From: Mesorhizobium sp. ZC-5
GTDB lineage: Bacteria; Pseudomonadota; Alphaproteobacteria; Rhizobiales; Rhizobiaceae
NCBI RefSeq assembly: GCF_025753855.1
Contig: NZ_JAOWPT010000002.1
Location: 186,001 to 250,000 of the forward strand
Direction: 5' to 3'
Length of the DNA stretch: 64,000 nucleotides
Shown here piece after piece: positions 9,989-44,189 of the stretch. The translations under genes and the position numbers were made by a program. How positions within the stretch are numbered: position 1 is the first letter of the stretch; every line of letters starts with the position of its first letter. The notes under the pieces were generated by a model that saw only the letters and a list, made by a program, of their open reading frames with translations, had not been told where the DNA came from and did not search any database.

Positions 9989-10501
9989 TTACTGAGCCGG
10001 TGCCGGTGCCGGTTCCGTAGGAGCGGGTGCCGGGGCCGGCTCGGCAGGAGCTGTCGCATCCGGTGCCGGGGCAGGCGCATCGGCAGGAGGCGTTGCGGGC
10101 TCCGTAGCTGCAGGAGGCGTCGCAGGCTCGGTGGCCGGCGGCGTTGCAGGCTCCGTCGCTGCCGGCGGAGTCGCGGGTTCAGTCGCCGCGGGAGGCGTCG
10201 CAGGTTCAGTCGTTGCGGGCGGCGTTGCCGGTTCCGTGGTCGTTGCGGGCGGCGTCGCTTCGTCTGTTGTCGTGGTGGTACCGCCGGCGAACATGAAATA
10301 GGCCACGACGGCAAGCACCGCGATGACGGCGGCGATCAGGACACCGGTGCTGCCGCCAGACGATGTCTGGACGACGGTCCGGTTGTCGCTGCGTGGATCG
10401 GCTGCTGACGGATACGGATTTGGGTTCAACGGATCGGCATCCGCTGGAGGAATAGGATTGAGCGGATCACGGGGATCCGTGTTGCGGGCAGGGCTGGCCA
10501 T
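9989..10501 (-). CDS. single-pass membrane protein with Pro/Ala/Thr/Glu repeat tail
   Basis: A GGAGAAACC site precedes the ATG at 10501, giving 170 residues. Residues 1-50 are polar and Pro/Asn-rich. A hydrophobic segment (VLIAAVIAVLAVVAYFMF) at about 53-70 is a membrane anchor. The rest is a low-complexity tail of repeated EPATPPA-type units, about eight copies, ending in Pro/Ala/Glu. The tail is likely extended and periplasmic. Function unknown; proteins of this shape occur as variable-length envelope proteins in rhizobia. The repeats should make length vary between strains. Confidence 0.75.
   Translation of the reverse strand: MASPARNTDPRDPLNPIPPADADPLNPNPYPSAADPRSDNRTVVQTSSGGSTGVLIAAVIAVLAVVAYFMFAGGTTTTTDEATPPATTTEPATPPATTEPATPPAATEPATPPAATEPATPPATEPATPPAATEPATPPADAPAPAPDATAPAEPAPAPAPTEPAPAPAQ
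10076..10262. repeat. coding tandem repeat, GC-rich 21-24 bp units
   Basis: Degenerate in-frame repeats of a unit reading roughly GGCGTCGCAGGCTCCGT(G/C)GC on the plus strand encode the EPATPPA(A/T)T units of the reverse-strand membrane protein. Units are separated by multiples of three, so the frame is kept. Confidence 0.75.
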
Positions 10502-31990: not shown

Positions 31991-32770
31991 ATGGTCGAAC
32001 TCACCCTTCCCAAGAACTCGAAAGTCCAGCAGGGCAAGACCTGGCCGAAGCCGGAAGGCGCCACCAATCTGCGCGAGTACAGGATCTACCGCTGGTCGCC
32101 AGACGACGACGAGAATCCACGCGTCGACACCTATTTCGTCGACATGGACGATTGCGGGCCGATGGTGCTCGACGCGCTGTTGTGGATCAAGAACAAGGTC
32201 GACCCGACGCTGACCTTGCGCCGCTCCTGCCGCGAGGGTATCTGCGGCTCCTGCGCCATGAACATCGACGGCGCCAACACGCTCGCCTGCACCAAGGGCA
32301 TGGACGACATTTCCGGCGCGGTGAAGGTCTACCCGCTGCCGCACATGCCGGTGGTCAAGGACCTGGTGCCCGATCTCACCGTGCCCTATGCGCAGCTCAC
32401 CTCGATCGACCCCTACCTGAAGACGGTGTCGCCGGAACCGGCCAAGGAGTGGCTGCAGAGCCACGAGGATCGCCAGAAGCTCGACGGGCTTTACGAATGC
32501 ATCCTGTGCTTCTGCTGCCAGACCTCGTGCCCGAGCTACTGGTGGAATGGCGAGAAATATCTCGGCCCGGCCGTGCTTTTGCAGGCCTATCGCTGGCTGA
32601 TCGATTCCCGCGACGAGGCGACCGGCGATCGTCTCGACAATCTGGAAGACCCGTTCCGGCTCTACCGCTGCCACACCATCATGAACTGCACGCAGACCTG
32701 CCCCAAAGGCCTCAACCCCGCCAAGGCGATCGCCGAGATCAAGAAGATGATGGTGGAGAGGCGGGTTTGA
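31991..32770 (+). CDS. sdhB: succinate dehydrogenase iron-sulfur subunit
   Basis: The 259-residue protein carries three iron-sulfur clusters. The 2Fe-2S ligands are in [17 protein letters not shown], the 4Fe-4S in [16 protein letters not shown], and the last ligands in [18 protein letters not shown]. The protein is intact and in normal length. Its last 187 bp (32584-32770) recur at 33842-34028, beyond an inserted FRG gene. The two copies differ at seven positions, all synonymous. The 3' end here may therefore be a replacement allele that arrived with the insert. Confidence 0.98.
32584..32770. repeat. direct repeat, left copy (3' end of functional sdhB)
   Basis: These 187 bp are 180/187 identical to 33842-34028, in the same orientation and offset by 1258 bases. 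The repeat ends at the sdhB stop codon. The seven differences are GAT/GAC, CGT/CGG, AAA/AAG, GGC/GGT, AGG/CGG, GTT/GTC and TGA/TAA, so the encoded protein is identical. Confidence 0.97.
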
Positions 32771-32801
32771 CGTATAGGTCAACTGATATTTTGCTTAGGT
32801 C

Positions 32802-33665
32802 TTAGCTGGGGCTATAATGCCGCTTAAGCCACAGTGCCAGTCCACCGAGTCCGGGGTATATTATACGTTCAGTTATGTTGGCTTGGTCGAGTTTATCTCT
32901 TATCTCCCACTTAATCTTTGCAGGTATAACGGTCTTCTTACTTTTGCTAGAGTTCTCATTTAACCATTTATTCATGGGCATGTCGGCATCAGAGATGACC
33001 GAGAACAATGCGAACTGATTGACGATCCGATCATCTATCGATGGTGGCTCAAAGAATAATGCAAACGGCGATTTTTTCATCCTGTCAAAATCATCCAACG
33101 TAGTGATCCTGCTTGGCGGCAATGGGCCAGCTCTCCTTAGGTCTTTGGTGGAAACTCCAAATACATCGAAATCTGTAGAACCAAGACGCGCTAACATGTC
33201 CACCGTAAAAACGTAGGAGCCCTCCTTTCTCAGTTCTGCACCCAGATTTCTTGGCAACTTTGAGTGAACTTCCGGAATTTTCGCAGACCAAACGACGCCA
33301 TCGTCGGTCATCCTTTCAAGGTCATCGGTCGCAAAATGTAACGCAACGAGCGGCGAATACGTCCAGTCTAATAGGCGCGTCGGCAAACCGTGGTGTTGGG
33401 CGACCGTAAGCCAGTGCCAAAACGACTCTCGTTCCACCACATCGCGATGTGCGTACTTCTTAAAGTTGCGAAGCAGGTGCTTCTCTATCGTCTTGTAAGC
33501 CCCGCCTAGCCGTACAAGCGATGTTCGCATATCCCAGTTCGCATCTACCATTCCGCGGAATGCGTAGGGCGAGCGATACCGCGATAGCTCGGGGTCCCAG
33601 TCGTCAACGTATAGTTCGCGAATAGCGTCCTCGAAACTGGTTGCGGTGTATTCTGTAACACTCAA
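32802..33665 (-). CDS. FRG domain-containing protein, putative defence gene
   Basis: The 287-residue protein has the FRG domain. The name-giving motif is at residues 34-38 (YAFRG, followed by the TSLVRL segment), and the second hallmark, QHHGLPTRLLDWTYSPLVALHFA, spans residues 90-111. The C-terminal half (FFEPPSIDDRIVNQFALFS) is typical too. I prefer a TTG start at 33665 because AGGGAG lies seven bases upstream; the frame opens at 33812 but the extra residues look unlike coding sequence. FRG proteins are of unknown biochemistry and often ride on mobile DNA, so a phage-defence or toxin role is inference. Confidence 0.88.
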   Translation of the reverse strand: MSVTEYTATSFEDAIRELYVDDWDPELSRYRSPYAFRGMVDANWDMRTSLVRLGGAYKTIEKHLLRNFKKYAHRDVVERESFWHWLTVAQHHGLPTRLLDWTYSPLVALHFATDDLERMTDDGVVWSAKIPEVHSKLPRNLGAELRKEGSYVFTVDMLARLGSTDFDVFGVSTKDLRRAGPLPPSRITTLDDFDRMKKSPFALFFEPPSIDDRIVNQFALFSVISDADMPMNKWLNENSSKSKKTVIPAKIKWEIRDKLDQANITERIIYPGLGGLALWLKRHYSPS

Positions 33666-33841
33666 GAAGAGGCTCCCTCGATAACTTGTTTCTGTTTCAA
33701 GAGCGGGTGAGGCGGAGACTATCGAACAAAATGGCGTTAGCAACTGGCTAGGTAAAGTCCGGGCCCGCCAAACCGACGTCAGGCAGTGAGCTCTGTTGAG
33801 CAAAATTTGCAATTCAGATAAAAGCTAGCATCGTGCCTGAC
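33666..33841. other. upstream region of the FRG gene, to cassette edge
   Basis: This AT-rich 176-bp stretch should contain the FRG promoter on the minus strand. The AGGGAG ribosome-binding site lies at 33673-33678. No second gene fits. The last bases before 33842 show no similarity to the sdhB sequence that precedes the left repeat, which fixes the right junction. Confidence 0.5.
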
Positions 33842-34028
33842 GGCCTATCGCTGGCTGATCGATTCCCGCGACGAGGCGACCGGCGACCGGCTCGACAATC
33901 TGGAAGACCCGTTCCGGCTCTACCGCTGCCACACCATCATGAACTGCACGCAGACCTGCCCCAAGGGTCTCAACCCCGCCAAGGCGATCGCCGAGATCAA
34001 GAAGATGATGGTGGAGCGGCGGGTCTAA
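33842..34028 (+). pseudogene. sdhB 3'-end fragment (displaced original terminus)
   Basis: This fragment corresponds to the last 62 codons of sdhB, including the final cysteine-rich cluster motif and a TAA stop, with no start codon of its own. It is 96% identical to the end of the intact gene and all differences are silent. It continues into sequence that looks like normal intergenic DNA before the next gene. It is therefore probably the ancestral sdhB end, pushed downstream when the cassette arrived. It is not expected to be translated. Confidence 0.93.
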
Positions 34029-34102: not shown

Positions 34103-34561
34103 ATGGATTGGTCAGTAGAGATGGAGGCGAAGGAGGCGATGCTGAGGCGCATCGTGGCGATGCTTTATTCTCTTGCCAATCTGGCCGAGCAGGCTGCCGG
34201 TCGTTCTCCGGCCATTCGCCACCTCGTGCTTCTATTTCTGCGACCCGCCGAATCCTTGGCGCGAGAAATGGTGATCCGTAACGCGCAGCACGTTGCCGCA
34301 CCTGTGCCTGAGTTGCTTGTCGCGGACTGGACTGACGGCAGCGCCGACGATGCAATGCGCCTTGCCCGGCGCTTTCGCGCACTCGCGCTGACGCTGGAAA
34401 GCCTTGTCGCTCTGATGCTTGCCGCGGATGCCCTGATTACCGGGCATCGAGCGGGAGCGAACCCGCTGCGGGCTCTCCGGCAAACGATGAGCACCTTGCG
34501 GTCGCTGCTCGATTGTATTCCGGGACGTCTCGAACCGGTCATGCAGCCCGACACGTCCTGA
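34103..34561 (+). CDS. conserved hypothetical, helix-rich protein
   Basis: The 152-residue protein has no recognised family. It is mostly helical, with hydrophobic stretches (LRRIVAMLYSLANLAEQAAG and LARRFRALALTLESLVALMLAADALI) separated by charged residues; the second might dip into a membrane. TCGGAGGG lies ahead of the ATG at the right spacing. It is the first gene past the sdhB fragment and appears to belong to the host backbone by its base composition. Confidence 0.7.
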   Translation: MDWSVEMEAKEAMLRRIVAMLYSLANLAEQAAGRSPAIRHLVLLFLRPAESLAREMVIRNAQHVAAPVPELLVADWTDGSADDAMRLARRFRALALTLESLVALMLAADALITGHRAGANPLRALRQTMSTLRSLLDCIPGRLEPVMQPDTS

Positions 34562-34670
34562 TGCCGCTCCCGCATCCGGATACCCAATTCTGGGGAGGTT
34601 TGAAGCATTCGCCCGGCGCACTAGCGCGCGGACGGTTGCCTGCGTATCTATGGGCAAAAGGAGCATGGCA

Positions 34671-35300
34671 ATGTCCGAGAATCTGGTTCACCTCAATGCC
34701 ATCGAAATCCGCGTGCTTGGTTGCCTCATGGAAAAGCAGCTTTTGACGCCGGATGTGTATCCGCTGACGCTCAATGCGCTGCAGTCGGCTGCCAATCAGA
34801 AAACCTCGCGTGAGCCGGTGATGTCGCTGGAGCCGGTCGACATCAACCGCACGCTGAAGTCACTGGAGGAAAAGGGACTGGCGCGGCGGATGATGGCATC
34901 GCGCGTCGATCGTTACGAGCAGATGGCGTCACGCAAATTCAGCCTGACCACGCCACAGAGCGCGCTGCTCGCCATGCTGCTGTTGCGCGGGCCGCAGACG
35001 CTCAACGAACTGCAGACCCGCACCGACCGCATGGCCAATTTCGGTTCGGCCGACGCGGTGCGCACCGAACTCGACATGCTGGTCGGCCGGCGTCCGCCGC
35101 TGGTCAAGGAGATCGGCCGTGCGCCTGGCCAGCGCGAAGACCGTTTCGCGCATTTGTTGAGCGGCGAGGTTCAGGCTACGCCGGTCGCCGCCGCGCCGGC
35201 CAGGCCCCCAAACCTTCTGTCCGAACTCGAAGCGCGCGTGAAGGTCCTGGAAGAGCAGATGGCGCGGCTGCGGGCGCAACTCGGCGACCAGGAAGCATGA
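34671..35300 (+). CDS. yceH: YceH (UPF0502/DUF480) family protein
   Basis: The 209-residue protein has the DUF480 pattern: LNAIEIRVLGCLMEKQLLTPDVYPLTLNAL, then NQKTSREPVMSL, and two winged-helix-like modules ending in RPPLVKEIGRAPGQREDRFAHLL. The C-terminal segment LLSELEARVKVLEEQMARLRAQL is a predicted coiled coil. Function is not established. The ATG at 34671 has AAAGGAG at seven bases; the ATG six bases earlier sits too close to the site. Confidence 0.92.
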   Translation: MSENLVHLNAIEIRVLGCLMEKQLLTPDVYPLTLNALQSAANQKTSREPVMSLEPVDINRTLKSLEEKGLARRMMASRVDRYEQMASRKFSLTTPQSALLAMLLLRGPQTLNELQTRTDRMANFGSADAVRTELDMLVGRRPPLVKEIGRAPGQREDRFAHLLSGEVQATPVAAAPARPPNLLSELEARVKVLEEQMARLRAQLGDQEA

Positions 35301-35388
35301 ACGCACCCGTAAATCACGCACCCGTGTAACAGCTTGATTTGAAACCTTCCGCATCTTCTGTACGTCTAACGAACGGGAGGACACGCCG

Positions 35389-36003
35389 ATGTCGCGCAAA
35401 GCTTTCTCTATCCTGCTTCTTGCCTTCGCCGCTGGTCTGCCGTTGCAGGCCGGACATGCGCTCGCCGAGACAAAGACGGCGATCTTTGCCGGTGGCTGCT
35501 TCTGGTGTGTCGAATCCGATTTCGACGGCGTTGCCGGCGTCACCTCGACCACGTCCGGCTATATCGGCGGCACCACGGAAAACCCGACCTACTATAATCA
35601 CACCGCGGCCAATCACCGCGAGGCGGTGCGGATCGAGTATGATTCGACCAAAGTGAATTACGCCACCCTGCTCGATGTGTTCTGGCATTCGGTCGATCCG
35701 ACAGACGGCGACGGCCAGTTCTGCGACCGCGGCCACAGCTACACCACGGCGATCTACGCGGTCGGCGCCGAAGACCTTGCAGCGGCGGAAAAGTCGAAGA
35801 AGCAGGCCGAAGCCGAGCTCGGCAAGCCGATCATCACGGAAATCGCAGCCGCGCCGGCATTCTGGCCGGCCGAGGACTACCACCAGGATTATTACCGGAA
35901 AAATCCGCTACGCTATAAATACTACCGCTCCGGCTGCGGCCGCGATGCGCGCATCGATGAAGTGTGGGGTGCCGCTGCCCACAAGGGCATCGCCAGCCAT
36001 TGA
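35389..36003 (+). CDS. msrA: exported peptide-methionine (S)-S-oxide reductase
   Basis: The 204-residue MsrA repairs oxidised methionine. Its catalytic Cys is C37 in FAGGCFWCVES, and the GYIGGTTENPTY and HREAVRIEYD motifs follow. An N-terminal signal peptide (ILLLAFAAGLPLQAGHALA) indicates a periplasmic form. A resolving Cys is present near the C-terminus (SGCGRDARI). A GGAGGACACGCC box precedes the ATG. Confidence 0.96.
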   Translation: MSRKAFSILLLAFAAGLPLQAGHALAETKTAIFAGGCFWCVESDFDGVAGVTSTTSGYIGGTTENPTYYNHTAANHREAVRIEYDSTKVNYATLLDVFWHSVDPTDGDGQFCDRGHSYTTAIYAVGAEDLAAAEKSKKQAEAELGKPIITEIAAAPAFWPAEDYHQDYYRKNPLRYKYYRSGCGRDARIDEVWGAAAHKGIASH

Positions 36004-36040
36004 ACCCCGAGCAGGCCGCTTGATGCGGCCCAATTCGCGT

Positions 36041-37162
<1,122 letters not shown>

Positions 37163-37336
37163 GGCTTCCTCCCGCTAGGCTGGTTGGCGGCAGGGTAACG
37201 AAGAACGGGGTTTTTTGGTTGCGAAGAGAGCCGGTATTGGCGTGCTCTATTGCGCTAAAATCGATTCAGGCTTTCGGAAAGATGCGAGGCGACCTGCGGA
37301 CTGACGATCACCGCCAGCCCGCAGTGCGCGGTCCGC

Positions 37337-37762
37337 CTAGGCAAGCTTTGCGTCGAGTGTCACGTTGATGGCGCCGAGCGCCTTCGAAACCGGGCATTCC
37401 GCCTTGGCTTTCTCGGCCAGTTCCTTGAATTTCGCCGCGTCGATGCCGGGAACCGTGCCGGCCAGCGTCAGCGCGCTGCCGGTAATCCCGGTGCCGGGCA
37501 CAAGCGTGACGACAGCCTTGGCATCGAGTTTTTCGGCCGGTGTGCCGTTTTCGGCGAGGAAATGCGAAAGCTGCATCGCGTAGCATCCGGCATGCGCGGC
37601 CGCGATCAGTTCCTCCGGGTTGGTACCCGACTTGCCGCTCTCGTCCTCGAACCGCGCCTTGAACGAATAGGGCAGCGCTTTCAGCGCGCCGCTCTGGCTG
37701 TCGAGCGTGCCGGCGCCCTCCTTCAAGTTGCCTTTCCAGACGGCAGTTGCGTGACGGTCCAT
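37337..37762 (-). CDS. OsmC family peroxiredoxin-like protein
   Basis: The 141-residue protein is of the OsmC/Ohr fold and probably reduces organic peroxides. The catalytic cysteines are in AAHAGCYAMQLSHFL and KAKAECPVSKALG. RHATAVWKGNLKEGAGTL is the OsmC-type start. The ATG has AAGGAGAACG upstream. It belongs to the OsmC branch and is distinct from the Ohr gene at 18.3 kb. Confidence 0.94.
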   Translation of the reverse strand: MDRHATAVWKGNLKEGAGTLDSQSGALKALPYSFKARFEDESGKSGTNPEELIAAAHAGCYAMQLSHFLAENGTPAEKLDAKAVVTLVPGTGITGSALTLAGTVPGIDAAKFKELAEKAKAECPVSKALGAINVTLDAKLA

Positions 37763-37952
37763 GATCGTTCTCCTTGGTTGGCGATGTCGAGCGCCTTGCG
37801 GCCACCCATGACTATAGCGCCCGCCGGCCGCCAAGCCATGACAGTTTCGGAAAAGACGCTCCGCCCGTAAATATTGCGGCACACGCCCGATCCCCAACTT
37901 TGCGCGTTGATGGCGGCCTGAACTTCCCGTATTTTCTGCCCCTGTTGCAGGG

Positions 37953-38489
37953 ATGTCCGACATGCATATTGTTCTTGCCGCGCTCGCCATTCTTGGGGGC
38001 GTCGGAATCTGGTGGTATCGCATGAAGATGATGAACGAAGCCGCCAACGACGCGGCCGACGTCATCGGCCGCGTGCGAGGCAATATCCGGCGTAAGAGGA
38101 TACGTCGCCAGAACGAGATGTCGCCACTCACCGCGGTCGACGATCCCGTCGTCGCGGCGGCAACGCTGATTTCCGCAATGCTGTCGGACGACGTGCCGCT
38201 GACGCCGGAACGCGAAGCCGCGCTCCGCAAGGAAATCGAACCGATCGTTCAGGACGGCAAACTGGACGAGGCGATTACCTACGCCAAATGGGCGAGTGGC
38301 CAGATCGACGATGCCGCCGTCGTCATCGATAAGCTCGGGCCGTTCCTGCGCGACAGGCTGAACGAGGAGGAGCGGCACGACCTCTTGGCGATGATCCGCC
38401 GTTCGTCCGCGGCCGCCGGACCCGGACTTCCGACGCTGGAGCCGCGTATGCGCAGGTTGCGCCAGAAGCTCGGGCTGGAAACGAACTGA
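37953..38489 (+). CDS. TerB-like protein with N-terminal membrane helix
   Basis: The 178-residue protein starts with one helix (HIVLAALAILGGVGIWWY), then a basic stretch and a helical domain from residue 58 (AVDDPVVAAATLISAMLSDD) similar to the TerB-like protein at 60976. TerB-like domains bind metal in tellurite resistance proteins, but isolated copies have unknown roles. The start at 37953 follows GTTGCAGGG; the next ATG at 37962 is an alternative. Confidence 0.7.
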   Translation: MSDMHIVLAALAILGGVGIWWYRMKMMNEAANDAADVIGRVRGNIRRKRIRRQNEMSPLTAVDDPVVAAATLISAMLSDDVPLTPEREAALRKEIEPIVQDGKLDEAITYAKWASGQIDDAAVVIDKLGPFLRDRLNEEERHDLLAMIRRSSAAAGPGLPTLEPRMRRLRQKLGLETN

Positions 38490-38545
38490 CAGGAAACATC
38501 TCCGCCAGATCGCCGCGCCGCACGTTCAGCCGCCGTCGCTTGAAA

Positions 38546-39475
38546 TCAAGTGCTCTTGATCGCTTCCCAATTGCTCAGCCGATCCGCGATCAACTTCGCG
38601 CGTTGCGCATTGTCGAGGCCGTCGAGAGTGGTGAGGTCACCCGGCTCGGCGCGTACGTAGATGCCGGCCGTCCGCTCCTTCACCTTGGGCTGGTTGTCGG
38701 CACGAGTCGTGAAGTACCCGGTCGCGCGGTCGGCGGACTCGAGCCTGATCTCTCCCGTCCCGAACAGTTGCGGCGCCTTCGGATCCAGGGGCCGCTCTCC
38801 GTTCCAATAGTAGAACAAGCCCGACGGGTCCTTCTTTTCCTTTACCGCTTCGCTCCAGTACCGCGCCGACAGTCGGCCGTCCGATTGCCATGAGCGTCCA
38901 CTCAGTTCGAGAGCGCCATCACGGTTCCGCGCGATCCGAAGAAGGCTGACGGCGGAAGGCTCCTTCTCGCTACGTTCCGTCAGGGAGAACTGCCACCACG
39001 ATCCGATGATGTGAGCTTTGCGCCCCGCATTCTCCATCGCCTTGCGGAGCTTCTGGTTGACGGCTTCGATCTCTTCCTGGGTCGTCGCTTCGCCGTAACG
39101 TATGGAGGTGAGCCCAAGGAGATCGGTCGGAAGTTTTGAACCGCTCGCGTGAAGAATAAAGGTGCGGCGCATGCCGAGAACTCCGCCGAAAAGACCCGCT
39201 TCGAAAACGACATTGTCTCGCGGCGACGCCTGGCCAGCGTCGGGGGAAGGCGATGCGGCCACGTTCACGGCCGTCCAGTCGTCCCTGGCGAATACGAATG
39301 CCGCGAAGTCCACCTCATGCGCGAGTTCGACGAGTCGCTCCAGCGTGGTGGTTCCGGGATTGAAGGACGTTGTCCAGGGATCGACGTGCGCGATGTCTTC
39401 AAGACCATCCGTCAGCGCCTGCAGCAGTTTCTCCTGCTTTCCCGACGAGCCGAGAAATATGCGAGGTTTGTACAT
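38546..39475 (-). CDS. TIR-like predicted nucleotide-binding protein with beta-rich C-terminal domain
   Basis: The 309-residue protein starts with a TIR-like domain (about 1-130): PRIFLGSSGKQEKLLQAL, a WTTSFNPGTTTLERL segment, VDFAAFVFARDDW and PRDNVVFEAGLFGG. E92 in the last motif is the likely catalytic glutamate. In related TIR-like effectors of CBASS and Pycsar systems the domain degrades NAD. Residues 157-295 form a separate domain rich in aromatic and Gly residues, predicted beta, of no family I can name; it could sense a ligand. No cyclase gene lies beside it. A stand-alone abortive-infection effector is my inference. Confidence 0.85.
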   Translation of the reverse strand: MYKPRIFLGSSGKQEKLLQALTDGLEDIAHVDPWTTSFNPGTTTLERLVELAHEVDFAAFVFARDDWTAVNVAASPSPDAGQASPRDNVVFEAGLFGGVLGMRRTFILHASGSKLPTDLLGLTSIRYGEATTQEEIEAVNQKLRKAMENAGRKAHIIGSWWQFSLTERSEKEPSAVSLLRIARNRDGALELSGRSWQSDGRLSARYWSEAVKEKKDPSGLFYYWNGERPLDPKAPQLFGTGEIRLESADRATGYFTTRADNQPKVKERTAGIYVRAEPGDLTTLDGLDNAQRAKLIADRLSNWEAIKST

Positions 39476-39636
39476 GTGTCCCCTCCTGCAGGGTCCGGAA
39501 GCGCCAGCCGCGGTCTTCGCGCAAAGGGCGCGATTCTGAAAGCGGATAAGTTCACCAGATCCGGACTCCGGTCAACTCCAGCCGGCACCTGCGTCCGTCA
39601 CGGACCAGTCCGATCACCGTTGCACGGTTCAAACCC

Positions 39637-40899
39637 CTAGATCGGCTCGCCCTTCAGCAGGCGCGGCGTTTCGCCCGACAGCCCGGAGGCCTGGCGGATA
39701 AAGAACTCCTTCATCCTCGGCATGCGGTCGACGAGCCCGAGCCCGATGTCACGGATCGCCCTCAGTGGACCGAAATCATTTGAGAACATGCGGTTCAGGA
39801 TATCGGTGGTGACGCCCATCTGCACCGTATCGAAACGCCGCCAGCGCTCGTAGCGCTGCAGCACGTCGAGCGCACCGATATCCTGGCCGAGTCGGTCCGC
39901 CTCGACGACGGTTTCGGCCAGTGCGGCGACATCCTTGAAGCCGAGGTTCAGCCCCTGGCCAGCGATCGGGTGGATGCCGTGCGCGGCATCGCCCGCCAGC
40001 GCAAGGCGTGGCGCCACGAAAGCACGCGCCAGCTTCAGGCCGAGCGGCCAGGCCCGCGGCTTGCCTTCGACCCTGAGTTCGCCGAGCTTCAGGCCGAAAC
40101 GCTGCTCCAGCTCCATCTCGAACACCAGGTCGTCGGAGGCGACGAGGCGATTGGCGTCGTCGGTGCGCTCGGTCCACACGATCGACGAGCGGTCGCCGGT
40201 CAGCGGCAATATGGCGAACGGCCCGGCCGGCAGAAAATGCTCCTCCGCGCGGCCGTTGTGCGGCCGCTCATGCAGGATCGTACAGACGATGCCGGACTGG
40301 CCATAGTCGACGTCGACAGTCTTGATGCCGGCCATGGCACGCAGTTTCGAGTTGACGCCGTCCGCCGCCACCAGGAGTCGCGCATTGACGACGATGCCGT
40401 CAGCGAGGTGGACCGAGACATTCGCCGGGCCGGTTTCAAAACCCTGCACCGCGACGCCTTCGATGATGTCGATGCCGAGATCGGCGGCGCGGCGGCGCAA
40501 GGCGCCGTTCAGCACCTTGTTGGCGACCATGTGGGCGAAGGGCTCGCCGGGCGCGACCTCGCCGTCGAAGGTCAGGAAGACCGGGCGCACCGGGTCGGTG
40601 GTGCGCGAATCGGTGACGATCATCTCGGTGATCGCCTGGGCGTGCGGCGCGATCTCGTCCCAGCAGCCGAGCCTGGCCAGCATCCGGCATGCGGCGGCGG
40701 CGATCGCCGAAGCGCGTGTGTCCTTTTCCCAGACACCCTCCGGCGCGGCATCGACGACAGCGACCTTGAGATTCGGCCGCGCTTCACGGATGGAAACGGC
40801 GGCGGCAAGCCCGACATAACCGGCGCCCGCCACCAGCACGTCGAGGCGCGGGCCCTCGTTGTCGGCGCTTTTTTTACGTGCTGTCTTTGCTTCCGCCAT
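39637..40899 (-). CDS. FAD-dependent ubiquinone biosynthesis hydroxylase (UbiH/UbiF family)
   Basis: The 420-residue flavoprotein has the FAD-binding GAGYVGLAAAVSIRE, the DGVNSKLR signature (LLVAADGVNSKLR) and LALAGDAAHGIHPIAGQGLNLGFKD. These mark the UbiH/VisC family, which hydroxylates the ring of ubiquinone precursors in alphaproteobacteria. Which ring position is unclear. I place the start at 40899, since the upstream extension has a different character. It is divergent from tesB by 90 bases. Confidence 0.93.
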   Translation of the reverse strand: MAEAKTARKKSADNEGPRLDVLVAGAGYVGLAAAVSIREARPNLKVAVVDAAPEGVWEKDTRASAIAAAACRMLARLGCWDEIAPHAQAITEMIVTDSRTTDPVRPVFLTFDGEVAPGEPFAHMVANKVLNGALRRRAADLGIDIIEGVAVQGFETGPANVSVHLADGIVVNARLLVAADGVNSKLRAMAGIKTVDVDYGQSGIVCTILHERPHNGRAEEHFLPAGPFAILPLTGDRSSIVWTERTDDANRLVASDDLVFEMELEQRFGLKLGELRVEGKPRAWPLGLKLARAFVAPRLALAGDAAHGIHPIAGQGLNLGFKDVAALAETVVEADRLGQDIGALDVLQRYERWRRFDTVQMGVTTDILNRMFSNDFGPLRAIRDIGLGLVDRMPRMKEFFIRQASGLSGETPRLLKGEPI

Positions 40900-40989
40900 C
40901 GATCCTGTCCTTACGCTGCGGCCCTGCTTGACTTCGCCCGGCCTTCCTGTTGGAACCCGGCTTCCGTACCTTTGGAAAGGCGCGAAAGA

Positions 40990-41865
40990 ATGTCCTCGGC
41001 CATGCAAGAGCTTCTCGACATACTCGACCTCGAGAAGCTGGAACACAATCTGTATCGTGGTCGCAGCCCAAAGGTCGACTGGCAGCGCGTTTTTGGCGGG
41101 CAGACCATCGCCCAGGCGCTAGTCGCCGCGCAGCGCACCGTCGAACCGGATCGCCACGTCCATTCGCTGCATGGCTATTTCATGCGGCCCGGCGATACGA
41201 AAGTGCCTATCATCTACGAGGTCGACCGCATTCGCGACGGCGGTTCCTTCACCACGCGGCGTGTCGTGGCGATCCAGCACGGGCAGGCGATCTTTTCACT
41301 CGAGGCGTCGTTCCAGACGGACGAGATCGGGCTCGAGCATCAGGTGCCGATGCCGCGCGACGTGGCGGCGCCCGACACATTGCTGTCGCAGCGCGAGCTG
41401 CTCGGCAAGTTCGGCGAAACGGTACCCGACGGCATCAAGCGCTACTGGGAGCGCGATCGGCCGATCGAGATGAAACCGGTCATGCTGGAGCACTACACCA
41501 GCCGTGAAAAGCTTGAGCCGAAGCAGAACATCTGGATCAGGACCACCGGCCCGGTTCCGGCTGACAGGGCGACCCAGGCCGCCGTACTCGCCTACCTGTC
41601 GGACATGACCCTGCTCGATACCACCACCTTCGCCCATGGCCGTGCCATCTTCGACCGCGACATCCAGGCGGTGAGCCTCGACCACGCGATGTGGTTCCAT
41701 CGCTGGCATCCGCTCGACGACTGGATTCTCTACACGCAGGACAGCCCTTCGACGCAAGGCTCGCGTGGCTTTACGCGCGGCACGTTGTTTGCCCGTGACG
41801 GAACCCTGATCGCATCCGTAGCCCAAGAGGGTCTCATTCGCCTGCGCGGGAAGCCTGCCGATTAG
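40990..41865 (+). CDS. tesB: acyl-CoA thioesterase II
   Basis: The 291-residue double-hotdog thioesterase hydrolyses medium and long acyl-CoA. The motifs RGRSPKVDWQRVFGGQTIAQAL and SLHGYFMRPGDTKVPIIYEVDRIRDG in the first hotdog, and DHAMWFHRWHPLDDW with QDSPSTQGSRGFTRG in the second, are those of TesB. The ATG at 40990 is chosen because conserved sequence starts there; the frame upstream is open for 1 kb as an antisense shadow of the monooxygenase gene. Confidence 0.95.
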   Translation: MSSAMQELLDILDLEKLEHNLYRGRSPKVDWQRVFGGQTIAQALVAAQRTVEPDRHVHSLHGYFMRPGDTKVPIIYEVDRIRDGGSFTTRRVVAIQHGQAIFSLEASFQTDEIGLEHQVPMPRDVAAPDTLLSQRELLGKFGETVPDGIKRYWERDRPIEMKPVMLEHYTSREKLEPKQNIWIRTTGPVPADRATQAAVLAYLSDMTLLDTTTFAHGRAIFDRDIQAVSLDHAMWFHRWHPLDDWILYTQDSPSTQGSRGFTRGTLFARDGTLIASVAQEGLIRLRGKPAD

Positions 41866-41983
41866 GCATTTCTCTATTTTTGCCTAGTTTTTGAGCAACC
41901 TGATTGCTGCACGTGCGAAGAAACCCGCGCGGCCAACCCCTGTTTCCGTTTGTTTCCAAAGCGTTAAGACCCTGCCGTTCGAA

Positions 41984-42000
41984 CTGGCACGGAGCTTGAA
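41984..42000 (+). promoter_or_regulatory. sigma-54 (RpoN) promoter of glnK-amtB
   Basis: CTGGCACGGAGCTTGAA matches the -24/-12 consensus (TGGCAC-N5-TTGC) with one mismatch in the -12 box. It lies 84 bases before glnK, as expected for a nitrogen-controlled NtrC-dependent unit. Confidence 0.75.
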
Positions 42001-42077
42001 TAACCCTTTGCACTCTCCGGCTGCGTATCCGCCGGCGATGCCATGTAACGCGGGGGATCCGCAAAAGCAGAGGGTGA

Positions 42078-42422
<345 letters not shown>

Positions 42423-42510
42423 GCATGACCCCGAAGGTTGCGAACCTGTTCGGACAAGCATCATGCGGAACCCGTGTGAGCCGCCATCAGATTTTTGTGG
42501 AGAGATTTCA

Positions 42511-43893
42511 ATGAAAATTCCTAGCAGTCTGGCGCCGTTGGCGCGCAAGGCCCTCTTGGGCACACTCGTTCTGGGGGCGCTGGGCACCGTTGCCGCCTTC
42601 GCCCAGGAAGCCGCCCCTGCAGCGGCCGACGCCGCTGCCACCCCGGCAGCCGCGCCGGTCCCCGACAAGGGCGACACCGCCTGGATGCTGGTCTCGACCA
42701 TCCTGGTCCTGTTCATGATCCTGCCCGGCCTCGCCCTGTTTTATGGCGGCCTGGTGCGTGCCAAGAACGTCCTTTCCGTGCTGATGCAGTGCACGGCCAT
42801 CACCGCTGTCGTCATCGTCATCTGGACGCTCTGGGGCTATTCCTTCGCTTTCGGCGGCGGCACCAGCCCGTACTGGGGCGGCCTCGGCAAGTTGTTCCTT
42901 GCCGGCGTAACGCCCGACAGCACGGCGGCGACCTTCTCCGACGGCGTCGTCATCCCGGAATTCGTGTTCATCTGCTTCCAGATGACCTTCGCCTGCATCA
43001 CGCCGGCGCTGATCGTCGGCGCATTCGCTGAGCGGGTGAAATTTTCGGCGGTCGTGATCTTCGTGGCGCTCTGGGTCACGTTCGTCTACTTCCCGATCGC
43101 CCACATGGTCTGGGATGCCAACGGCCTGCTGTTCGGCTGGGGCGCGCTTGACTTCGCTGGCGGCACGGTCGTCCACATCAACGCCGGCATTGCCGGCCTC
43201 GTCGGCTGCATCATGATCGGCAAGCGCGCCGGTCTCGGCCGCGACAACATGGCCCCGCACTCGCTGCCGCTGACATTGACTGGCGCCGGCATCCTGTGGG
43301 TCGGCTGGTTCGGCTTCAACGCCGGCTCCAACCTCGAAGCAACCGGCGGCGCCGCGCTGGCGATGATCAACACCTTCACCGCAACCGCCGGCGCGATCAT
43401 CGCCTGGGTTGCGATCGAAGCAGTCGCACGCAAGACCGCCTCGCTTCTCGGCGCGGCGTCGGGTGTTGTCGCCGGCCTGGTCGCGGTTACTCCGGCTGCC
43501 GGCATTGTCGGCCCGATCGGCGCCATCGTGCTCGGCGTGATCGCCAGCTCGGTCTGCTACTACTTCGTGGCGGTGGTGAAGCCGAAGCTCGGCTATGACG
43601 ACAGCCTCGACGTGTTCGGCATCCATGGCGTCGGCGGCATCGTCGGTGCAATCGGCACCGGTATCTTCGCCAGCGCCTCGCTGGGCGGCATCGGCTATGC
43701 CGAGGGCGTGAGCATGGGCGGCCAGGTGTGGACCCAGATCCTGGCGGTGCTCGTCACCATCGCCTGGTGCGGCATCGGTTCCGTCATCCTCTACAAGATC
43801 GTCGACATGCTGGTGGGCCTGCGCCCGACACCCGAAGCCGAAAACCAGGGCCTCGATGTCACCTCGCACGGCGAAGTGGCCTACCACAGCTAA
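42511..43893 (+). CDS. amtB: ammonium transporter
   Basis: The 460-residue channel has an N-terminal signal-like helix ending AAFAQEAA, then about eleven helices. Signature segments are DTAWMLVSTILVLFMILPGLALFYGG, the conserved pore His in DFAGGTVVHINAGIAGLVG, and the second pore His in DVFGIHGVGGIVGAIGTG. GGAGAG precedes the ATG. It is co-transcribed with glnK after an 88-bp gap. A strong terminator follows 73 bases on. Confidence 0.97.
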   Translation: MKIPSSLAPLARKALLGTLVLGALGTVAAFAQEAAPAAADAAATPAAAPVPDKGDTAWMLVSTILVLFMILPGLALFYGGLVRAKNVLSVLMQCTAITAVVIVIWTLWGYSFAFGGGTSPYWGGLGKLFLAGVTPDSTAATFSDGVVIPEFVFICFQMTFACITPALIVGAFAERVKFSAVVIFVALWVTFVYFPIAHMVWDANGLLFGWGALDFAGGTVVHINAGIAGLVGCIMIGKRAGLGRDNMAPHSLPLTLTGAGILWVGWFGFNAGSNLEATGGAALAMINTFTATAGAIIAWVAIEAVARKTASLLGAASGVVAGLVAVTPAAGIVGPIGAIVLGVIASSVCYYFVAVVKPKLGYDDSLDVFGIHGVGGIVGAIGTGIFASASLGGIGYAEGVSMGGQVWTQILAVLVTIAWCGIGSVILYKIVDMLVGLRPTPEAENQGLDVTSHGEVAYHS

Positions 43894-43966
43894 CCCGATC
43901 GGCGGGGTGCGCGAACCGCACCCCGCAATTTCATCCCGTCCGAGCAGCTTCGGCCGCTCGAACCTG

Positions 43967-43995
43967 AGCCCGGCCCTCGGCCGGGCTCTTTTTTA
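43967..43995 (+). terminator. rho-independent terminator of glnK-amtB
   Basis: GAGCCCGGCC and GGCCGGGCTC pair over ten bases with a three-base loop, followed by TTTTTT. Confidence 0.93.
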
Positions 43996-44189
43996 TCGGA
44001 TCGGGCGCTTCGCGATGTGTGCTGTTCGGCGACAACCCCGCACTTCCGGTTGCCGCGATTTTCGATGAAACATCGCCGCGCCGGCGGCCATGGTTAATGC
44101 CGCCTTAACCTTCCCCCCGATAGTCTGGCCGTCGAATCTGCCGAACTGCGCTCAGGCATCAGGCAGGCAAAAGACTGACGGGGTTACGC
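43996..44189 (+). other. ftsK upstream region
   Basis: No gene is present. The region holds a CtrA-type box at 44094-44108 and the GACGGGG start context of ftsK. Confidence 0.5.
44094..44108 (+). promoter_or_regulatory. CtrA-type box upstream of ftsK
   Basis: TTAATGCCGCCTTAA is a perfect TTAA-N7-TTAA, 82 bases before the ftsK ATG. It fits control of a division gene by the cell-cycle regulator CtrA. Binding is inferred. Confidence 0.65.

Follow-up and report, generated by a model that had tools for sequence, protein, structure and literature searches.

Gene Content of the sdhB Locus

The window analysed in this study is a 64,000-nucleotide stretch of the genome of Mesorhizobium sp. ZC-5, in which a low-GC gene lies between an intact sdhB and a second, truncated copy of the end of that gene. 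The features of the locus, in window positions, are as follows.

31991..32770, plus strand: sdhB, intact, 259 aa (open reading frame and Pfam Fer2_3/Fer4); left flank of the insertion
32584..32770, plus strand: copy 1, the 3' end of the working sdhB itself; 180 of 187 bases shared with copy 2
32771..33841, no strand: insert, 1071 bp, 49.1% GC; no DNA match in the same-genus loci compared
32802..33665, minus strand: FRG-domain gene, 287 aa from a likely TTG, antisense to sdhB (Pfam, PADLOC; alignment with five relatives)
33666..33841, no strand: DNA upstream of the FRG gene together with the junction, with a non-homologous join at about 33833-33841 (flank comparison)
33842..34028, plus strand: copy 2, the sdhB 3' end, 5'-truncated, with its own stop (repeat search, sequence comparison)
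34103..34561, plus strand: ORF of no recognised kind, 152 aa, between copy 2 and yceH
34650..35300, plus strand: yceH (DUF480; Pfam PF04337), right flank

The sdhB gene ends in a TGA stop at 32770 and encodes a protein 97% identical to that of G001, a genome of the same genus; copy 2 closes with a TAA stop of its own. Over 187 bp the two copies share 180 bases (96%), and the repeat search of the window returned them as a direct repeat of 97% identity (32584-32766 and 33842-34024), the longest found in the 64 kb. Mismatches fall at repeat positions 46, 49, 124, 127, 176, 184 and 186, and the first 45 bp are identical. A first-pass annotation of the sequence had described this structure, an FRG gene between the intact sdhB and a second copy of its last 187 bp, and our comparison confirmed it. 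Only two other repeat families of at least 60 nt were found in the window, namely a pair of 63 nt with 84% identity and an array of low complexity. The array, which is GC-rich, occupies 9996-10275, with nine overlapping register copies in steps of 21-39 nt.

The assembly is a draft of 68 contigs, and together with a 187-bp repeat this could suggest an assembly error. We find such an error scarcely credible, since the copies differ at seven sites, the locus lies 218 kb into a 1.06 Mb contig, with the whole stretch mapping to that single place in the assembly, and another genome, G144, carries an FRG relic at the same place.

The Insert and Its FRG-Domain Gene

The composition of the insert is foreign to its surroundings: its GC content is 49.1%, while sdhB has 62.2% and the window as a whole 63.6%. 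The FRG gene is its only sizeable gene, in agreement with the earlier remark that no integrase is present. To the left of copy 2, the DNA is unrelated to sdhB save for a few common bases at 33833-33841.

Counted from the first TTG, the FRG reading frame covers 32802-33812 on the minus strand. The likely start is the TTG at 33665, which would give 287 aa and is preceded by a GGGAG-like site, and the scored matches in eight other genomes of the family begin at residues 50-60 of the long ORF. This start is likely rather than firm, because in a looser comparison the match begins at residue 31-32 in two of those eight relatives and the relic in G144 matches from residue 20.

Pfam identified the FRG domain (PF08867, E = 1.4e-28), and its motifs were invariant across the six sequences when the protein was aligned with five relatives. 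PADLOC assigned the protein to PDC-S15 (best E = 1.3e-47), and we take the PDC label to denote a defence candidate. Judging from the domain and PADLOC matches, the protein probably acts in anti-phage defence. One source assigns the FRG domain to the ADP-ribosyltransferase (ART) superfamily and suggests that it may serve as an NADase effector in immunity (PMC9503650). Set beside FRG-domain proteins as that source describes them (PF08867; PDC-S15), the window protein is a clear domain match with conserved motifs; known here from its sequence, it shows nothing unusual.

Divergence between the Two sdhB Tails

The six coding mismatches between the copies are all synonymous, and the seventh is the swap of the stop codon. 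Under a simple model in which a random change is synonymous in about 25% of cases, six of six has a p value of about 2.5e-4. These all-silent differences indicate that the copies grew apart while each belonged to a functional sdhB in a lineage of its own, so that one copy is foreign, and that copy 2, which is now non-coding, has hardly drifted since the event. By this measure, the insertion is recent.

Among 120 loci of relatives, copy 2 carries the commonest state at five of the seven sites; 102 loci are nearer to copy 2, 5 are nearer to copy 1 and 13 are equally near to both. Identities over the 187 bp to copies 1 and 2, respectively, are 172 and 174 for G001, 172 and 174 for G078, and 171 and 175 for G144. 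We do not assign the donor's copy, because the nearest relatives (G001 and G078) do not discriminate between the two.

The FRG Gene and the Right Flank among Relatives

The genus of the window (g1) is represented in the set by three genomes, namely the window genome, G001 and G002. In G001, yceH follows about 10 bp behind sdhB, and in G002 msrA comes next after sdhB; both are empty sites without the FRG gene, of the kind that the first-pass annotation had proposed to look for. That annotation had also named, as the case against its reading, the same FRG gene and repeat in all relatives, which did not occur. The FRG protein has matches at E ≤ 1e-20 in 10 of 395 genomes of the family, the window's own included, and sdhB lies near the match only in the window genome and G144 (within the DNA fetched, at least 1.2 kb to about 10 kb per side).

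The G144 gene is a decayed relic between sdhB and yceH, so that the adjacency of sdhB and FRG exists in a second genus. The C-terminal part begins no more than about 5 bp from the sdhB stop and the N-terminal half extends as far as yceH, with an unrecognisable middle; a second sdhB tail was not detectable in G144 (alignment score 22; shuffles with a mean of 22.7 and a maximum of 33). In G201, which belongs to the same genus as G144, sdhB and yceH abut. FRG relatives in genome contigs amounted to three loci at 45-62%, and the donor was not found among them. No direct repeats of at least 40 nt were found at the two FRG loci scanned (L031 and L057).

On the right flank, the ORF at 34103-34561 had no match in Pfam, PADLOC or NCBIfam, and none outside its own genome among the matches listed (E ≤ 1e-60, two candidates per genome). 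G198 has a weak relative of it (43% identity across 60 aa) some 3.3 kb past its sdhB. The DNA of the window's yceH is 72% identical to that of the sister genome G001 (sdhB, 92%) and 87% identical to that of G078 (sdhB, 90%), and in the yceH tree the window groups with G078 and G032 (support 100/97), not with G001. On the strength of the identities and the tree, we regard yceH as xenologous in the window genome, with a history that differs from that of sdhB. Across the bacterial family, yceH looks mosaic. Further to the right, msrA and the following genes (window 35300-44068) match contig C10 of G001 (L007) and not the DNA behind its sdhB, and much of this gene order is kept in G002.

These data bear on the possibility that the FRG gene already stood behind sdhB and that the second tail came later, in a piece consisting of an sdhB end, the ORF at 34103 and yceH, which would have joined illegitimately beside the FRG gene and by homology further to the right. 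The xenologous yceH agrees with this order of events, as do the arrangement sdhB-FRG-yceH without a second tail in G144 and the about equal distance of the two copies from their nearest relatives. However, two genomes of the same genus lack the FRG gene and the ORF at 34103 was not seen in the gap elsewhere, among the matches listed at the strict threshold, and we consider a later arrival of the tail rather improbable.

Second sdhB Tails in Other Genomes

The 187 bp of copy 2 were searched in 395 genomes of the family, 383 of which matched; two candidates were scored per genome, which makes the counts lower bounds. Two or more tail matches were present in 66 of the 395 genomes, and the 65 other than the window's were followed up. 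The second copy lies on the same contig, close behind sdhB, in 16 of these 65. Seven other strong second matches (G002, G144, G228, G125, G041, G344 and G032) are whole or nearly whole further sdhB genes, and the further-sdhB loci L009, L026 and L028 were excluded from the tail-copy, inverted-repeat and allele comparisons. The remaining second matches are short, with E of about 1e-19 or weaker, and were taken for chance.

Only one of the 16, G198 from another genus, resembles the window in having a single low-GC antisense gene and then a second sdhB tail, which is 331 bp long and 93% identical. The GC content of this cargo is 48.6% against 62.1% for its sdhB. The cargo gene had no match in Pfam, PADLOC or NCBIfam; its protein is present in 3 of 390 genomes, G198 included, and sdhB was absent from the 3.3-3.6 kb fetched around its relatives in the other two. 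The second tail of G198 contains nonsynonymous changes and a stop codon, which are what a decaying copy would be expected to show.

Fainter traces were seen in three further genomes. In G392 a decayed tail, beginning between 202 and 190 nt before the stop (stop-202 to stop-190), follows yceH and two more ORFs. G372 retains a relic of about 49 nt of the tail ahead of yceH, and in G287 a weak tail relic stands behind yceH. Among the 395 genomes, well-preserved long tail copies were found in the window and G198 only, with the decayed copy of G392 in addition, as a lower bound. Rfam gave no match in the five loci searched.

A phage or plasmid as carrier of the tail was considered and rejected. No match to the 187 bp was found in 50,697 phage records at E ≤ 1e-5, and the 11 matches in viral contigs were all nearly whole, distant sdhB genes (58-62%). 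Plasmid records with a match numbered 56, of which the 30 listed were annotated sdhB genes or places whose gene is unlisted.

The first-pass annotation had read the structure as an att-type integration with a repeat far longer than att sites. The length is not exceptional, as prophage e14 in the icd gene of E. coli duplicates 165 bp, with 12 exchanges (PMC11148124). Site-specific integration of a small element in the manner of e14 would keep the target gene intact, as the element would bring an sdhB 3' end with it, cross over where the repeat begins on its 5' side and depend on a recombinase that acted in trans or was lost; the identical first 45 bp of the repeat are consistent with this, and the decayed tail of G392 starts near the same point as the window's. 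However, the insert holds the FRG gene as its only sizeable gene and no integrase, the repeat begins at stop-187 in the window and at stop-331 in G198, 144 bp further upstream, the FRG gene of G144 occupies the same place without a detectable second tail, and the phage records lack an sdhB tail. The first three of these points lowered an att-type element from first choice; the start of the G392 tail opposes that verdict, and we regard integration of this type as unlikely.

The window does resemble e14 in E. coli K-12, as described in that source, in its long duplicated 3' end of a TCA-cycle gene (165 bp in e14), in the whole host gene and in exchanges that are mostly silent. It differs in that e14 is a prophage with an integrase gene (PMC11148124), whereas the window has one gene, no integrase and a repeat start that is not shared with G198.

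The Gap between sdhB and yceH

The gap was surveyed in the genus holding Mesorhizobium sp. 131-2-1 (g70), from which 60 of 146 genomes were taken as a hand-picked, non-random sample that includes nine of the eleven g70 genomes with two or more tail matches. yceH is kept behind sdhB in 60 of the 60 loci fetched. The estimated gap between the two genes ranges from -4 to 4434 bp and is at least 450 bp in 29 of the 60, and a long second sdhB tail was found in none of them. The cargo in g70 includes an RlaP-type nucleotidyltransferase, a sulfatase-domain membrane protein, DUF983 and an aminotransferase, as well as a ParD-like antitoxin (G405) and a DDE transposase (G521). Outside g70, the cargo comprised a glycosyltransferase (G032) and a protein whose PD-(D/E)XK match fell below the cutoff (G066). 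A Pfam scan covering ten cargo proteins of the gaps returned the one DDE transposase (G521) and no integrase.

In 7 of the 12 sulfatase-class loci, the interval from sdhB to the sulfatase gene contains broken pieces of yceH, and an intact yceH follows further along. They stand directly behind sdhB in L017, L067, L083 and L097 and behind another gene in L061, L070 and L081, and L017 also holds an sdhB-tail relic of about 49 nt. The loci with broken yceH probably share ancestry. Their presence indicates that partial copies of the flanking genes recur in the gap.

From its gene content, the gap behind sdhB looks like an integrase-free insertion hotspot. The idea that sdhB is a docking site for small defence cargo, with other cargo to be expected in other genomes, stands in part. 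Variable cargo, empty sites and, in G198 alone, other cargo between two sdhB ends agree with a docking site. A role specific to defence does not stand, as most of the cargo families that can be named (RlaP nucleotidyltransferase, sulfatase, DUF983, aminotransferase and glycosyltransferase) are not defence-like. A literature search covering few subscription journals found no report of sdhB as the integration site of a genomic island or of an insertion hotspot at Mesorhizobium sdhB.

Many hotspots are without integrases, and their flanking core genes recombine (Oliveira et al. 2017, PMC5635113). Like the hotspots of that paper, the gap carries varied accessory genes inside a conserved gene pair, showed no integrase among the cargo proteins scanned and is flanked by a gene of incongruent history, yceH. 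It is unlike them in that the partial duplication of a flank gene in the window records a one-sided event, whereas the paper proposes double crossovers.

Origin of the Insertion

The explanation that we prefer, with a probability of roughly 60%, is that DNA consisting of an sdhB end and its cargo entered an integrase-free hotspot between sdhB and the next conserved gene, often yceH, through one homologous side and one illegitimate join. A donor with the FRG gene directly behind its sdhB would have supplied a piece made of the sdhB 3' end and the FRG gene. One side of this piece would have entered by homologous recombination within sdhB, the other by an illegitimate join. The route may have been homology-facilitated illegitimate recombination; alternatively, a circularised fragment may have entered by a single crossover, which would give the same product. 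The recipient sdhB would have been left whole, and a second sdhB tail would remain on the far side. Directly observed are the duplication, the inter-lineage type of divergence between its copies, the foreign composition of the cargo, the varied cargo and the empty sites among relatives, and the sdhB-FRG adjacency in a second genus; within this explanation we infer both the strand events and which of the copies is the donor's. The explanation is also favoured by the second case in G198 with its different repeat start, the FRG relic of G144 that has no detectable second tail, the broken yceH pieces, the xenologous yceH of the window and the lack of a match in the phage records.

Entry by one anchor and one illegitimate join accounts for the intact gene, the foreign gene, the truncated tail and the unrelated DNA at the truncation, because such a pair of events yields this arrangement. 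The homologous anchor is present as 187 bp of sdhB at 96% identity, the non-homologous join is present to the left of copy 2, and an adjacency of sdhB and FRG like that of the presumed donor is seen, as a relic, in G144.

Homology-facilitated illegitimate recombination has been described for three naturally competent species and for conjugation in E. coli (PMC3240628), and it has been proposed for displaced effector/immunity modules in the T6SS clusters of Vibrio cholerae (PMC5361080). The window shares with those modules one homologous anchor, one illegitimate join and old sequence displaced downstream, and differs from them in that its anchor is a housekeeping gene, its scar is the duplicated end of that gene, and effector/immunity genes are absent.

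Several observations weigh against the preferred explanation. This kind of recombination is described as rarer than the homologous kind by several orders of magnitude (PMC5361080). The search did not find the donor, and no close relative is clearly more similar to one copy than to the other. The start of the decayed G392 tail lies near the stop-187 of the window, as a fixed crossover site would give, and well-preserved long tails are rare; the 60 g70 loci have no long tail copy.

Entry was most likely by ordinary recombination and not by a new mobile element, which the finding does not need. The window would represent an unusually fresh and legible scar of the entry of a foreign gene into a chromosome without an integrase, in which the two tails would record the homologous side, the join would record the illegitimate side, and the silent differences point to an origin of one tail in another lineage. 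The finding also singles out the gap between sdhB and yceH for searches for accessory genes in Mesorhizobium and its kin. Swapping of cargo by recombination between the copies, which the first-pass annotation had suggested, is possible.

A wider reading would make the sdhB 3' end a standing anchor for an integrase-less cassette pool in the family, in which single low-GC antisense genes move together with an sdhB tail, recombination between tails bringing about their gain, exchange or loss, and in which the same end is also prone to short duplications with fixed boundaries (about stop-39 and stop-90). We put this reading forward as a speculation whose truth we doubt.

Short Tandem Copies of the sdhB 3' End

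Just behind sdhB, some loci repeat a short stretch of its 3' end in tandem, beginning at stop-90 in L011-L015 and at stop-39 in L018-L024, L060, L061 and L110. Across ten genera, the starts of these copies fall at two almost constant positions, some 90 or 39 nt ahead of the stop, and the copies are accompanied by a spacer of 40-170 nt that holds a GC-rich palindrome. Short copies were present in 15 of 121 loci, a figure that is no rate, since 12 of the 15 were fetched for a second copy already seen and L060 and L061 for having at least two matches.

A further possibility is that the sdhB tail was duplicated in tandem inside a single genome before the FRG gene inserted between the two tails, and it would draw on the recurrence of such short copies in the family. 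However, the starts of the short copies and their palindromic spacer are unlike the window, for which reason we judged them to be a different event, and the all-synonymous divergence misfits a copy that would have been non-coding from birth. We hold this origin of the window's repeat to be very improbable.

Of the 17 loci with copies, 14 have an exact inverted repeat of at least 8 nt between the sequence following the stop and the end of sdhB, in 12 cases near the start of the copy; of the 104 loci without copies, 12 have one. The short copies look like duplications templated by the inverted repeat. Two such copies stand in a row in G138 and in G411.
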